Positions 16,178 to 35,392 of a DNA stretch of 54,151 nt are shown here, piece by piece; the first letter of the stretch is position 1, and every line of letters begins with the position of its first letter. A program made the translations under genes and the position numbers. Source of the DNA: a virus. The notes under the pieces are model-generated. The model did not search any database. It saw only the letters and a program-made list of their open reading frames with translations, and was not told the origin of the DNA. Where the stretch lies: the IMG/VR virus record IMGVR_UViG_3300044960_000107, positions 1 through 54,151 of that record, one strand, 5' to 3'.

Positions 16178-16188
16178 GCGCCTATCGG
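16178..16188 (-). promoter_or_regulatory. Start-associated box (SAS-like) before the protease
   Basis: CCGATAGGCGC on the minus strand, 5 nt before the ATG, identical over 20 bases with the box at 10773-10783. The portal stop codon (TAG) is inside the box. Confidence 0.65.
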
Positions 16189-17477
16189 CGGATCAGTTCG
16201 GAGAGCGCCTTGGCGTATCGCTCGCTGTGCCCGTTGCCGTTACCGTTGAGACCGAGCTTCTCGCGGAGGACGTCCTCGAGCGATTCCTCGTCTTGCTCGG
16301 GTTCCTCGGACAGAAGCGGGAGGTCTTCGAGCTCACGAACTTCATTGACGAGGAGGAACTTCTTGTCGATGCCAATGGCGTATGCCTCGTAGCGGGTCTT
16401 CGTGTCGCCACGGAGGAGTGCGGAGACGTTGAACTGTGGATAGATGTCGCGGTCGCCTTCCTTGTTGAACAGCCGCTTCTTGAGCGTCGATTCGATGCGG
16501 ACGAGCCAGGGCCGAAGGCTGTGGACGACGAAGTCGATGGCCTGCTGCTCGACGCTGGCGTAGGAGACGGAGCCGGCCTCGAGGTCGGCGAGCATGTAGG
16601 GCGGGACGCGGAAGATGCGGGCGACTTCGCGGACGCCGAACTTGCGGGTCTCGATGAACTGGGCGTCGCCCGGGGGAATGCCGACGGTCTTGATGTCGGC
16701 GCCGGCCGTGAGGATGCCGAGCAGGTGAGACTTCTTGAGGCCCTTGTGAGCCGAGTCCCAGGCGGCCTTGAACTCCCGCTGCTGCTCGGCGTCCATGACG
16801 CCGGGCCAAGTGACTACGGTGCCGGGTCGAGCGTCGTTCGCGAAGAACCGACCACCGTACTCCTCGGCAGCGATCGCGACACCGAGGGCCTGGCGGGCTA
16901 CCATGATCCGGCTGAGACCGACGTCGCCGCAGGTGCGGAAGCCCTTGAAGTGGATGACCTGATCGGCGGTGAGGCTGTGATCGCGCCCGTTAGGCAGTCT
17001 GGTGATGTAGACGAGCTTGCTGCCGTCGGGGCTGCGGAGCGGCTTGGTACAGGAGGGACTGAGCGGCCAGAGCTCGACGTCGCCGGCCCCGTTGCGGGGG
17101 AAGACGTACCAGTAGGAGTTGCCCCAGAGGGCGACCTGAGAGACGATCATCTCCCACATCTCGAATGAGGTGAGCTCGGGGTTTGGCTCGAGGTTGAGTA
17201 GGTCCCAGCGGGGGTCGTTGCGGAGCTTCTCGCGGCCCTGGTCGGTGCGCTTGTAGATCGGGCAGGGCAGGCCGGCGACGGAGTCGGAGAGGATGCCTAC
17301 CGCGGCAAGCACGGCGGTCATGCGAAGCGACTTCTCAGGGGTGACGCTGATGCCAGCATCGGTCAGGATGGACGTGCCGTCGTCCATCTGCGTCAGCGCG
17401 ATCTTCAGGTCGACGCTGGGGTTCTCGAGCGAATCACGCTTCTCGTCGAGTCGGAGGATGCGGCGCACGAGTCCCAT
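16182..17477 (-). CDS. Portal protein
   Basis: 431 residues. Motifs of the HK97-type portal: VAACVG-like opening (TAVLAAVGILSDSVAGLPCPIYKR), a VYITRLPNGRDH segment, HFKGF, and EYGGRFFANDARPG followed by the RIFRVPPYMLAD segment. It forms the dodecameric DNA entry ring. Lies after the RNA cluster; the start has a GATAGGCGC box 4 nt upstream. Confidence 0.93.
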   Translation of the reverse strand: MGLVRRILRLDEKRDSLENPSVDLKIALTQMDDGTSILTDAGISVTPEKSLRMTAVLAAVGILSDSVAGLPCPIYKRTDQGREKLRNDPRWDLLNLEPNPELTSFEMWEMIVSQVALWGNSYWYVFPRNGAGDVELWPLSPSCTKPLRSPDGSKLVYITRLPNGRDHSLTADQVIHFKGFRTCGDVGLSRIMVARQALGVAIAAEEYGGRFFANDARPGTVVTWPGVMDAEQQREFKAAWDSAHKGLKKSHLLGILTAGADIKTVGIPPGDAQFIETRKFGVREVARIFRVPPYMLADLEAGSVSYASVEQQAIDFVVHSLRPWLVRIESTLKKRLFNKEGDRDIYPQFNVSALLRGDTKTRYEAYAIGIDKKFLLVNEVRELEDLPLLSEEPEQDEESLEDVLREKLGLNGNGNGHSERYAKALSELIRR

Positions 17478-17481
17478 CGGT

Positions 17482-17492
17482 GCGCCTATCGG
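17482..17492 (-). promoter_or_regulatory. Start-associated box (SAS-like) before the portal
   Basis: CCGATAGGCGC on the minus strand, 4 nt before the portal ATG and about 10 nt downstream of the tRNA-Gln gene. The placement directly after an RNA gene means it cannot be explained as an upstream gene's last codons. Confidence 0.65.
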
Positions 17493-17501
17493 GCGCTGCG
17501 A

Positions 17502-17573
17502 TTCGGGGGCAAGGACTCGAACCCTGATCTCGGCGGCCAGAACGCCGCGTCCTGCCGATTAGACGACCCCCGA
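17502..17573 (-). tRNA. tRNA-Gln (CTG)
   Basis: 72 nt. Acceptor TCGGGGG pairs with CCCCCGA; D arm GTC...GAC with TAATCGGCA loop; anticodon stem CGGCG/CGCCG with loop TTCTGGC (anticodon CTG); T loop TTCGAGT. CCA is not encoded. It starts 1 nt after the end of the tmRNA-like element. Confidence 0.9.
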
Positions 17574-17574
17574 G

Positions 17575-17664
17575 TGGAGCCGGCGGGAATCGAACCCGCG
17601 TCCCTGTCCGACGCTCGAGTGAAACTGGCCCTCGAACGTCTGACAGGCGCACCTCTGCGGCCCC
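17575..17664 (-). ncRNA. tmRNA-like / tRNA-like RNA without D stem
   Basis: 90 nt. Acceptor GGGGCCG pairs with CGGCTCC including a G3-U70 wobble, the alanine identity pair of tRNA-Ala and tmRNA; the next base is A73. The T arm is canonical (GCGGG, TTCGATT, CCCGC). There is no D stem; instead a 10-nt linker leads into a long hairpin, CCTGTC/GACAGG (6 bp), an A-G mismatch, then GACGTTCGAG/CTCGAGCGTC (10 bp with one wobble) and an 11-nt loop. This is the geometry of a tmRNA tRNA-like domain with the P2 stem capped and the message part absent. It directly abuts both tRNA genes. Alternatives: an attP-like remnant of a host ssrA 3' end, or an aberrant tRNA. Confidence 0.6.
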
Positions 17665-17667
17665 AGG

Positions 17668-17736
17668 TAGCGGGCGAGGACTCGAACCTCCTAGCCGGCG
17701 TATGAGACCGGCCGAACCACCTGGCTCTACCCGCCG
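17668..17736 (-). tRNA. tRNA-Met-like (CAT), atypical
   Basis: About 69 nt. Anticodon stem CCGGT/GCCGG with loop CTCATAC gives anticodon CAT. The T arm has GAGG/CCTC with loop TTCGAGT. The acceptor can be drawn as GGCGGGT with GCCCGCT and A73, or shifted by one to give a C1-A72 mismatch as in initiator tRNAs. The D stem is poor (GCC/GGC only) and the molecule is short, so it may be degenerate. Downstream bases ACCT stand where ACCA would be. Confidence 0.6.
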
Positions 17737-17751
17737 CCGACGCTGATCGGC

Positions 17752-19446
17752 TCAGGCCATCGGGATGAACTGCGGGACGGCGACGCGCGCATTCGCCTCG
17801 AGCCTGGCGACGCCCATGACGAGCGCGATGGCGAGATCGACGGGCTTGGTGACGTCCTTCTTGGTGAGGCGGAAGCCGCGGCCGGTGTCCTTGGCGACTG
17901 CGGAACGGATATGGGCGCGCAGGACAGGGTCCCCATCGTGAGCAATGACCTGATCGACGATCGCATTGCGGGCCGCCTCGGTAGCTGGGCACATACGGCT
18001 GTCCTGCTGGGGGAACTCGACGACGACCATTCCCTCGGCCTCGAAATCCTGCGCGGACCGCTCAAAGCGCCAGGGGTCGTAGCCGAACTCGAGCATGCGT
18101 CGGTACTTGCGCCGCTCGTTTCGGACGTCGTTTTCGACGAGGGCGAACTCGACCTTCTCGTCGATGAGCACGTGAGCGGGCGGGGGCGGCTTGTTCGGGT
18201 CGATCGGGCGGACACCCCAGGAGTTCGCCTTCACCACGTAACGGTCACGGCCGTCTATTTGTTGACGAGCGATGGTGATGCGCCCGGCGGTGTCGCGCTT
18301 GAGTCCCATGTCGACGGTGATGACGACCTCGGCCTCGGGGTCGATCTCGACGCCAGGGACCGCGCAGGCGTCCCAGGCGGTGATCGGAAGCCATGACTCC
18401 TCGGCCTCAGTCCAGGCGTTTAGCCGGCGGCGGCGGAAGACGAAGACAGGAAAGCGCTCGAAGTCACGGATGATCGTCTCGGCGCCGATCCAGCTCGCTT
18501 CGTTGACCTGTTTGGCGAGCTCAATCGCGCGGGAGTCAAGCGGCTTCTTGTCGATGACGTGGTCGGCGAGCTTCTCGAGGACGAACTCCTCGTCCTTATC
18601 GTCGAGCTCGGGCACGTAGGCGTAGAGGTCCCTGCGGGCCCCGGGGTCTCCAGCGATGACTCTGACTGCTTGCTGGTAGAGCTCGCCGCAGATGGTGTCC
18701 TCGTTGACGCCTGCGTTGGTGATGTTCAGGGTGAAGGGTTGCTCGCGGGCAACGTCACCGGAGGTGAGGACGTCGTAGAGGTCGCGCTTCGGGTGCCGGT
18801 GGAGTTCGTCGATGATGTTCGCGTGCGGGTTGAGCCCTTCGTGGACGCCGGCGTCTGCGGAGAGGACGCGGTAGACGCTGTTCGTTCGCTCGACGACGAT
18901 GGCGTCTCGCAAGACGCGGACGAAGTCAAGTAGCCGCGGTGAGGCGTTGACGGTCTCCCGGGCTTGGTTGAAGACGATCCGGGCCTGGTCCTTTGCGCTC
19001 GCGGCCGAGTAGACCTCGGCGCCCTCCTCGCCGTCGGCGCAGAGAAAGTAGAGCGCGTGCGCGGAGGCGCCGGTCGACTTGCCGGTCTTCTTGGTGAGCT
19101 GGATGTACGCCTCGCGATAGAGGCGGACGCCTGGCTCAGGATCAAGACGCTTGTACTCGCCGGCGAGTCGCTCGTAGAACAGGGCGGGGTCTCGGGCGCA
19201 GGTCTCGAGGTCGTCCTCGTCGAGCTCGATCCAGTAGTCAGAGTCAGTGCGCAGCATCTCCGACTCGATACGGAGCTGCCACGGTTCAAGGTAGAGCGGC
19301 CGCTTTGCCCAGCGGCCTTTCGTCTGGACGATGTATTCGGCGGCGAACAGCGCGAAGTGGGCGCCGCCCGCGGAGAGCATGAGCGCTGGCTCGAGGTCGC
19401 CGGAGCGTGTGCGGGGAACGCCACGGCGGCATGTGAGCGAGCTCAC
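17752..19446 (-). CDS. Terminase large subunit
   Basis: 564 residues from GTG 19446, overlapping the small-subunit stop (GTGA). The packaging ATPase has a Walker A-like TKKTGKST at 118-125 and Walker B NIIDELH with Asp213/Glu214. The C-terminal RNase H-like nuclease includes ITVDMGLKRD with Asp379. It translocates DNA into the head and cuts concatemers. Confidence 0.95.
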   Translation of the reverse strand: MSSLTCRRGVPRTRSGDLEPALMLSAGGAHFALFAAEYIVQTKGRWAKRPLYLEPWQLRIESEMLRTDSDYWIELDEDDLETCARDPALFYERLAGEYKRLDPEPGVRLYREAYIQLTKKTGKSTGASAHALYFLCADGEEGAEVYSAASAKDQARIVFNQARETVNASPRLLDFVRVLRDAIVVERTNSVYRVLSADAGVHEGLNPHANIIDELHRHPKRDLYDVLTSGDVAREQPFTLNITNAGVNEDTICGELYQQAVRVIAGDPGARRDLYAYVPELDDKDEEFVLEKLADHVIDKKPLDSRAIELAKQVNEASWIGAETIIRDFERFPVFVFRRRRLNAWTEAEESWLPITAWDACAVPGVEIDPEAEVVITVDMGLKRDTAGRITIARQQIDGRDRYVVKANSWGVRPIDPNKPPPPAHVLIDEKVEFALVENDVRNERRKYRRMLEFGYDPWRFERSAQDFEAEGMVVVEFPQQDSRMCPATEAARNAIVDQVIAHDGDPVLRAHIRSAVAKDTGRGFRLTKKDVTKPVDLAIALVMGVARLEANARVAVPQFIPMA

Positions 19447-20149: not shown

Positions 20150-20191
20150 CATAGACGCTCAGCGCGCACATGCGCGGGTTGGGCACCTATG
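20150..20191. repeat. 42-bp inverted repeat, copy C
   Basis: CATAGACGCTC at 20150-20160 and GCACCTATG at 20183-20191; 42 bp in total. It separates the ABC-ATPase/GNAT gene (its stop TAG is in one arm) from the packaging operon. Confidence 0.8.
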
Positions 20192-21371
20192 CGTCGTCGG
20201 CCTTCGGCGGTCGATAGCGGAACGATGTGACGGCGGCGCGGCGCAGGTCGACGAGCGTGCCGTCGGCGAGGGTGCGCTTGCTGCCCTTCGTTGGCATCCA
20301 CTTCTGGGTCGTGCCCTTCTTACGCCGACGCGCCGCGGTCTGCTGACCGTAGGTGCCCTTCTTGCCCCAGGTCATAGTGTTGAAGCCCTGCTTGGTGACC
20401 ATCTCCCAGCGGGGCGAGCGGGCGAGCGCGCGCACGAGCCCAGGGTGCGCTGTGGTGATGTGGGCGCGCTGGCCCTGGTCGGCGAGTGTCTGTCCTGCCC
20501 AGTCGAGCATGACGGTCGCTATGCCGAGGCCCTGATAGTCGGGGAGAACGACGACCCGGTTGATGTAGTAGATGTTCTTCCGGCGCGGGTGCGGGAATCG
20601 GCGCCACGAGAGCCAGGCGACGGGGTCGTCGCCGACGTAGCCGACGTGGCAGTAGGACCCGTTCGGGAGGCTCGAGCTCAGATAGTGGTGCGGAGCAAAG
20701 GTTCGCCAGACTTCGCGCCCGCACGGATAGACCTCGAGGTCAAGGGCTGGTCGTCGTTGAAGACACCTCCAGGTGAACGCGAGTCCGGCCGGCTCGTAAA
20801 TCCAGTCGGGCTGAAGCCAGTCAATGACGTCGTAGTGGCAGGTGACGGCGACGAACTGCTTGTCCGTCTTCCTGATCGCCTTCTGGATCGCGTGCGAGGC
20901 CACCTTGGCGACCTGACGGTCAACGACGCTCGTGAACTCGTCAATGGCGACGAGGTCTTCGGCCTCGGCGATCGCGCGCGCGACGGTAGCTCTGAACTGC
21001 TCTCCGTTGGAGAGGACATGGTGAGGTCGAACCCAGGCGGGCGGCGATGCGAGCCCAACAGTCGAGAGGAGACTCGTGATCGTCTTCGTGTCGAGCTCCT
21101 CCGGGAAGGCGTCGATGATCCCTTTGTCGGTCGGCCAGTCGAAACGTTCGATGAGGCGATCGCCGAAGACCTCGCGCGCGATGGTGCTCTTGCCGCAGCC
21201 GGAAGGGCCGACGATCAGACCGACCTGCCAGGGGCATTCGTCGAGCGGCATTTCGACGTCCCAGGTGAGCTTCGACTGCTCGGAGGGGGGAACGTCGAAC
21301 ATCGACTCGACCTGGATCACGCGCGGGGTGCGCGCGATAGTCGAGATGCGCTCTACATGAACGCTCGGCAC
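20187..21371 (-). CDS. ABC-type ATPase fused to a GNAT domain (Mom-like DNA modification candidate)
   Basis: About 394 residues from GTG 21371 (the frame is open to 21431). Residues 50-200 are an ABC-class ATPase: Walker A GPSGCGKST (55-63), signature VLSNGEQ (119-125), Walker B DLVAIDEF (139-146) and H-loop His179. Residues about 215-330 form a GNAT domain with HHYLSSSLP and the acetyl-CoA-type loop VVLPDYQGLGI. No membrane partner genes exist, so transport is unlikely. Phage Mu Mom is a GNAT-fold DNA-adenine modifier, so base modification of the phage genome is a reasonable hypothesis. Overlaps the ParB-like gene by 19 bp. Confidence 0.75.
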   Translation of the reverse strand: MPSVHVERISTIARTPRVIQVESMFDVPPSEQSKLTWDVEMPLDECPWQVGLIVGPSGCGKSTIAREVFGDRLIERFDWPTDKGIIDAFPEELDTKTITSLLSTVGLASPPAWVRPHHVLSNGEQFRATVARAIAEAEDLVAIDEFTSVVDRQVAKVASHAIQKAIRKTDKQFVAVTCHYDVIDWLQPDWIYEPAGLAFTWRCLQRRPALDLEVYPCGREVWRTFAPHHYLSSSLPNGSYCHVGYVGDDPVAWLSWRRFPHPRRKNIYYINRVVVLPDYQGLGIATVMLDWAGQTLADQGQRAHITTAHPGLVRALARSPRWEMVTKQGFNTMTWGKKGTYGQQTAARRRKKGTTQKWMPTKGSKRTLADGTLVDLRRAAVTSFRYRPPKADDA

Positions 21372-21937
21372 TCGTAGCCGTCCTCGGTCAGGCGCTCGAG
21401 CAGTTCGCGCTGCTCGACCTCGCTGGTGCATTCGACGAGCACGCCGAAGAAACCGGCGACCTCGTCCTCGTCGGCATCCCCCTCGTCGGGCGGGGCAAAC
21501 TCGGCGAGCAGCTTGTTGACCTCCGTCTCGGCGAGCCCGGTCAGGTCGAGGTCGCGACCGGCATCCTGGAGCTCGCGCAGGAGCTCGCTCAGCTCATCGC
21601 GCTCCCACTCGCCGAATGGGGCGTTGTCTCGGATCGCCCACTCAATCGCCTCCTCGTCCGTCATGCCCTCGGGGACGTAGAAGGTCGGAATCGTCTCCCA
21701 CTCGAGCTCGCGAGCGGCGCGTAGGCGCATGTTGCCGGCGATCACGGTGCCGTCCGATCGGGCGATGATCGGCCGCGCGCGCAGCATCTCCGGGACCTGT
21801 TCGATCGAGCGCATGAGCCGATCTAGCGCGTCCTTGCTGATGGTGCGAGGATTGCGCTCCCACTCGTGAAGGTCGCCGATCTTGGCGTCAACGACCTTCA
21901 GCGAGCGGGAGGATGCGGTCTTAGGAGCTGCTGCCAT
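21353..21937 (-). CDS. ParB-like nuclease-domain protein
   Basis: 194 residues from ATG 21937. LHEWERNPRTISKDALDRLMRSI, then PIIARSDGTVIAGNMRLRAAREL, are the ParB/Srx-type N-terminal motifs. No ParA neighbour exists, so plasmid-type partition is not indicated; stand-alone phage ParB-like proteins next to DNA-modifying enzymes or terminase are common. Overlaps the ASCH gene and the ABC/GNAT gene. Confidence 0.85.
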   Translation of the reverse strand: MAAAPKTASSRSLKVVDAKIGDLHEWERNPRTISKDALDRLMRSIEQVPEMLRARPIIARSDGTVIAGNMRLRAARELEWETIPTFYVPEGMTDEEAIEWAIRDNAPFGEWERDELSELLRELQDAGRDLDLTGLAETEVNKLLAEFAPPDEGDADEDEVAGFFGVLVECTSEVEQRELLERLTEDGYECRAFM

Positions 21938-35128: not shown

Positions 35129-35392
35129 GTCAGACCCTCTCCCCCCGTGTGTGACCCTAGATTGTGTATTTCGTTACGTATTGGGACACGTAGAGAGGGG
35201 GACACACAGACACCCCGTCTCCTTTGTCTCCGAAAGTCATCTTTATGCCCCAATCCCGCATGGTTGAGCCGAAACTTTCGGAGACAACCAGCGTTTCTGA
35301 AAGCGTCTCCGCTGTCGCTGAAAGTGTCAAGTCGGTTGACACTTTCGGAAGCATTCGGAGACGCGAATGTCTCCGAAAGTGTCTCCGAAAGG
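35129..35392. repeat. Iteron-like repeat region, candidate origin or operator
   Basis: 264 bp with no plausible gene. GTCTCCGAAAG occurs exactly at 35226-35236, 35369-35379 and 35381-35391 and inverted at 35275-35285, with partial copies at 35297-35303, 35342-35349 and 35354-35362. A perfect 11-bp inverted repeat (35320-35330 with 35336-35346) spans two TTGACA boxes. The side at 35161-35190 is relatively AT-rich. It lies beside the primase/helicase gene. Confidence 0.65.

Follow-up and report, generated by a model that had tools for sequence, protein, structure and literature searches.

A phage mini-tmRNA without a message region belongs to a broad viral family and may jam host ribosome rescue

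Results

A tRNA-like domain without a message

The IMG/VR virus record IMGVR_UViG_3300044960_000107 (54,151 bases, 67% G+C; analysed whole, from position 1 to 54,151, and called the window below) is a phage record that carries, between two tRNA genes on its minus strand, a 90-nt gene for a message-less mini-tmRNA, a form of transfer-messenger RNA (tmRNA) that consists of a tRNA-like domain and a P2 hairpin. In the literature open to our search this kind of RNA is known from one phage, mycobacteriophage DS6A; here it is shown to be a broad viral family with the window element as a member. By analogy with DS6A, the mini-tmRNA may jam the ribosome-rescue system of the host. The parts of the element are as follows.

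17575..17664 (-), 90 nt: message-less mini-tmRNA (tRNA-like domain and P2 hairpin)
17658..17664 (-): acceptor 5' strand GGGGCCG, with G3 at 17662; pairs with 17576-17582
17648..17657 (-): D-region CAGAGGTGCG, retaining the family's GG and CG and not its full UUCGAC
17603..17647 (-): P2-like hairpin in which one A.G mismatch separates 6 bp from 10 bp, with an 11-nt loop; stands in for the P2, internal loop and inner hairpin of the family
17583..17599 (-): T arm GCGGG-TTCGATT-CCCGC, a 5-bp stem with a 7-nt loop
17575..17582 (-): acceptor 3' strand CGGCTCC and discriminator A73, with U70 at 17578

Read downward from 17664, the 5' part runs GGGGCCG, CAGAGGTGCG, CCTGTC A GACGTTCGAG; the hairpin loop (GGCCAGTTTCA) lies between GACGTTCGAG and CTCGAGCGTC, and the 3' part continues from CTCGAGCGTC with G GACAGG, GAC, GCGGG TTCGATT CCCGC and finally CGGCTCC A. 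An earlier, sequence-only reading of this stretch had described a 90-nt element with a 7-bp acceptor containing G3-U70, an A73, a canonical T arm and a 17-position P2-like hairpin with an 11-nt loop. All of these are present, the hairpin consisting of 16 pairs and the single mismatch, and acceptor, T arm and discriminator are of the alanine-acceptor type. The same reading saw no D stem; this holds for the likely fold, although the unconstrained minimum-energy fold draws an alternative 3-bp GCA/UGC stem in the D region and loses acceptor pair 7. The element has no mRNA-like part with a tag frame and pseudoknots: the P2-like arm is closed by its loop only, and a tag frame would have no space.

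The fold z-score of the element is -4.06, and none of 200 shuffles was as stable. Dinucleotide shuffling of the middle of the element reached a 16-pair hairpin once in 2000 trials. Since about 12 other hairpins of that length occur elsewhere in the window, the hairpin by itself is unremarkable; the remarkable feature is its combination with the acceptor and the T arm. The longest hairpin of the window, with up to 19 pairs, lies away from the mini-tmRNA at 35338-35383.

The Rfam tmRNA model RF00023 aligns over the full length of the element but skips its own central part, where 274 model positions correspond to 9 nt; it scores 36.6 bits (E 2e-13) in one run and 45.2 bits in another (gathering score 47). 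Neither ARAGORN nor Rfam calls an ordinary tRNA at 17575-17664, and this assignment was rejected on that ground and on the 16-pair arm with its 11-nt loop in a molecule with no D or anticodon arm. We also rejected a 326-nt 'tmRNA*' called by ARAGORN at 17343-17668, which runs through the adjoining tRNA-Gln gene and whose 'tag' is an artefact.

A covariance model, R1, was built from 38 message-less mini-tmRNAs with the window element left out. R1 finds the element at 50.4 bits (E 2.9e-10) and scores the adjoining tRNA-Gln at 16.3 bits; in the background, full-length tmRNAs reach up to 39 bits and the best true tRNA-Ala 45.1 bits (L156). Where conservation across the family reaches 85% or more in the D-region and T side, the element retains every position. 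Its D-loop keeps the GG and CG of the consensus GGNUUCGAC, and in place of the family's internal AAA loop and CCG..CGG inner hairpin it has a continuous 10-bp extension. The structural class, a tRNA-like domain without a message, is thus well supported, as the sequence-only reading had supposed, by the deleted middle of RF00023, the R1 match and the covarying helices of the family.

A covarying family in viral contigs

Viral contigs were scanned with a pattern that required an acceptor beginning with GGGGNYG, a T arm and a terminal GCTCCA, so that parts of the acceptor were preset. At least 119 loci were found; among the loci listed, 105 of the 119 score 46 bits or more with R1, on at least 105 contigs and with about 60 distinct sequences. 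A typical member is 78-82 nt long and has a tmRNA-type D-loop (GGUUUCGAC) and a 7-bp stem of variable sequence, followed by AAA, an inner hairpin CCGCAYGCGG, GGAC and the T arm.

The helices of this family covary strongly. When 64 matches are aligned to R1, 96% of the pair cells are standard and 16 of the 22 pairs, including all seven P2 pairs, show changes on both sides; the covariation was reached by none of 500 shuffles, and slid controls collapse. This alignment is fitted to the model, and an independent MAFFT alignment is therefore the fairer test: there the two-sided changes recur in all seven P2 pairs, with a covariation score far beyond that of shuffles. G3-U70 is present in 63 of 63 aligned members, a figure partly imposed by the search pattern, so that members found by other routes are more telling.

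One such member (L036) was reached through the similarity of its terminase protein (30% identity), directly upstream of which lie a tRNA-Phe and a mini-tmRNA. Its acceptor, GGGCUAG/CUAGUCC, differs from the usual stem in three pairs and retains G3-U70. The RNAs of the Streptomyces phages LuckySocke and GiJojo differ over 78 nt from that of L145 solely by G4-C69 to U4-A69, a two-sided change beside an unaltered G3-U70.

Five cultured phages carry a mini-tmRNA, namely phiPsal1 of Pontimonas and LuckySocke, GiJojo, pSt2308 and Alone3 of Streptomyces. None of these copies is annotated, and that of GiJojo is covered by a called coding sequence, the hypothetical gene 44 (L271:1499-1741), which is probably a misannotation. 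The Alone3 copy (L270:2501-2577) has mismatches in P2 and the T stem, which is intact in LuckySocke, and is possibly decaying. In the four Streptomyces phages, as in L145 and L196, the mini-tmRNA follows tRNA-Val(tac) in a tRNA array and precedes tRNA-Ser(gct) where those tRNAs are named. In phiPsal1 it lies just upstream of the capsid gene, and the same position is found beside homologues of that capsid in L122, L214 and L141 (48-63% identity to the L122 protein). Across the family, a survey of neighbours shows only ordinary head, packaging and replication genes and a few integrase genes.

Long-arm forms such as the window copy are rare: a scan of all IMG/VR for lengths of about 83-113 nt gave nine loci, three of which (L160, L195, L209) fold into long arms. 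In L029:844-1008 a 73-nt variant that scores 48 bits follows a tRNA-Gln(CTG) at a distance of 19 nt; this tRNA species also flanks the window element.

Among 84,980 species in a bacterial genome scan the pattern matched 21 times, and five matches were accepted as real mini-tmRNAs. Five Streptomyces matches (L248, L253, L256, L263, L264) were rejected as remnants of the 3' end of ssrA with an unpaired 5' strand. They are near-identical, are preceded by GGGGCCGAGAAAA, which does not pair with the 3' strand, and are likely attachment ends of genomic islands. Three RNAs in Nostoc and cyanobacterial contigs (L259:856-936, L261:5665-5745, L262:6776-6856) resemble mini-tmRNAs in a distinct GGNGUUCGAC..AAACCNACAAA form; few clear phage families were seen among the neighbouring proteins checked.

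Genomic setting

The space between terminase and portal is occupied by the mini-tmRNA and its two flanking tRNA genes, and all five genes lie on the minus strand.

17752..19446 (-): terminase large subunit, preceding the RNA cluster on its strand
17666..17735 (-): tRNA-Met(CAT)-like gene, separated by 1 nt from the 5' end of the mini-tmRNA; scores below the Rfam tRNA gathering score
17502..17573 (-): tRNA-Gln(CTG), separated by 1 nt from the 3' end of the mini-tmRNA
16182..17477 (-): portal protein, following the RNA cluster on its strand

The sequence-only reading had given spacers of 3 nt and 1 nt; the second stands, and ARAGORN replaces the first, giving 1 nt on both sides (17574 and 17665). 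No local promoter was found in a scan covering the sigma-70-like type, which fits read-through from the packaging operon. A search for SmpB in the 54-kb record, which is possibly incomplete, found none. Megablast of 18 kb against phages gave no match, and among the portal relatives searched for synteny no R1 match rose above the tRNA background.

The tRNA-Met(CAT)-like gene is irregular: its acceptor pairing is ambiguous, and its top-scoring Rfam family in the region is tRNA-Sec (31.4 bits), since the sequence allows a 9+4-like stem. Further upstream, at 20187-21431 (-), a 414-aa protein of phrog_11143 (unknown function) joins an ABC/AAA ATPase part to a GNAT acetyltransferase part.

Discussion

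A candidate antagonist of trans-translation

We propose that the element is a phage antagonist of host trans-translation, with a probability of roughly 0.55. The precedent of DS6A makes this the best-supported reading, since an RNA similar to its tRNA-like-domain-only (TLD-only) tmRNA inhibits tmRNA, and the decoy or modulator role suggested by the sequence-only reading agrees with that work (PMC4131195, PMC11915505).

Beyond the structure, family, covariation and context established above, we infer expression, charging, SmpB binding and inhibition in the following steps. The mini-tmRNA would be transcribed with the packaging genes, in the order terminase, RNA cluster and portal, and cut from that transcript by tRNA-processing enzymes, as its 1-nt spacing to the tRNAs suggests. 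The CCA-adding enzyme and the alanyl-tRNA synthetase (AlaRS) of the host would then mature and charge it, a step suggested by A73 and G3-U70, which are kept across the family. Host EF-Tu and SmpB would bind the product, which would compete with host tmRNA for SmpB; alternatively, it may enter stalled ribosomes, take the nascent peptide and offer no message. Either route would dampen host trans-translation late in infection.

Several observations weigh against this proposal. Both RF00023 scores of the element fall short of the gathering score, and its R1 score exceeds that of the best tRNA-Ala by only about 5 bits, so that family membership depends in addition on the lack of both a D arm and an anticodon arm. 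With a D-loop that has not kept the full UUCGAC and with the inner loop and hairpin lost, the window copy may be a poor SmpB binder or may be drifting. The fit to titration is also imperfect: G3-U70 is preserved though mere titration would not need it, which makes a charged RNA with an action on the ribosome conceivable. A bolder form of this idea is that phage RNAs include a widespread class, the message-less tmRNAs, whose alanine charging is under selection and which are not mere sponges, acting on the ribosome so that the nascent chain is taken and aborted untagged, as message-free trans-translation or its poison. We hold this wider claim only tentatively and think it probably goes too far.

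Alternative explanations

The mini-tmRNA might instead be active rather than inhibitory: once carrying alanine, and with SmpB as its guide, it would accept the stalled peptide and free the ribosome by drop-off or release, as possibly happens with message-less mitochondrial tmRNAs. The compensatory changes that preserve alanine identity in L036, LuckySocke and GiJojo speak for such a role, as does the co-occurrence of mitochondrial tmRNA lacking a tag frame with SmpB (PMC11915505). A pure SmpB sponge, moreover, needs no alanine identity, the reported inhibition being independent of charging (PMC4131195). However, there is no known route for the later release of the peptide, and the sole published experiment that we found on a phage TLD-only RNA reports inhibition. 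We consider an active role unlikely.

Decay offers another account, in which a captured tmRNA persists in the tRNA cluster as a non-functional remnant. The inner loop and hairpin are missing and the D-loop is partial. Close relatives of the window copy were not found either: blastn in phages matched the conserved 3' end only, and the four viral contigs that share the exact 17-nt 5' string of the element carry no mini-tmRNA. Random decay, however, would not keep pairing, and here the acceptor, the T arm and the 16-pair hairpin are intact with a strongly negative z-score; the long-arm relatives (L160, L195, L209) likewise argue against it. We regard a decaying remnant as distinctly improbable.

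Slightly less probable still is an alanine-charged RNA that serves a reaction outside rescue, for example by donating an amino acid to a transferase or by modulating AlaRS. The lower half of the molecule varies while the acceptor keeps its identity, and a charged RNA without an anticodon would not compete in decoding. The neighbour survey, however, revealed no partner gene that recurs beside family members, and the conserved GG..CG of the D-region is a tmRNA pattern that is not required for AlaRS alone.

Finally, an attP-like copy of the 3' end of a host ssrA used for integration, the main alternative in the sequence-only reading, is largely refuted: the last 28 nt of the element are indeed identical to the 3' ends of ssrA in many viral contigs, but the identity ends at 28-29 nt, a paired 5' acceptor strand is present, neither the tyrosine integrase (Phage_integrase) nor the serine recombinase (Resolvase) family was found in the possibly incomplete record, and most family members lie by structural genes rather than integrases.

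Significance

Almost all bacteria have trans-translation, and many cannot live without it. Small phage RNAs that resemble the charged half of tmRNA would, as a broad family, provide a set of natural antagonists of this system, or stripped-down versions of it. The breadth of the family appears unreported in the literature open to our search, most subscription papers lying outside it; the sources there discuss one phage case, from 2009. Five cultured phages now offer directly testable copies that are not annotated as tmRNA. Mini-tmRNAs also bear on the use of a tmRNA without a message, a question shared with mitochondrial tmRNA.

Comparison with known systems

The original study of the DS6A TLD-only tmRNA is reportedly that of Mao et al. 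2009. In later sources the DS6A tmRNA is described as 'TLD only', and an RNA similar to it strongly inhibits E. coli tmRNA whether or not it can be charged, perhaps through titration of SmpB (PMC4131195, which cites that study; restated in PMC11915505). Matched by description, the window element fits the DS6A type: it is a phage-encoded tmRNA-type tRNA-like domain with little beyond it and no tag frame. It differs from DS6A in its extended P2 hairpin and in its place between tRNA genes in a packaging operon.

With standard one-piece tmRNA (ssrA, RF00023) the element shares the G3-U70 acceptor, A73, a T arm after GAC, the absence of a D stem and a P2-type helix, whereas it has no tag frame or pseudoknots, misses about 270 model positions and scores below the gathering threshold. 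The message-less mitochondrial tmRNAs of jakobids and others (RF02544; PMC11915505) have likewise, by description, kept the tRNA-like domain and lost the tag frame, but they are organellar, usually come from permuted genes and are paired with SmpB. The 2025 tmRNA database holds 79 phage sequences and, in all, 9 'standard, no CDS' (coding sequence) forms (PMC11915505).

The closest likeness is to the viral family described here, with which the window copy shares its architecture and conserved positions. Typical members are 78-82 nt long with UUCGAC, the AAA internal loop and the CCGCAYGCGG inner hairpin, whereas the window copy has 90 nt and one long hairpin. It is a divergent form of a kind of RNA already known, though rare, and now seen to make up a sizeable viral family.
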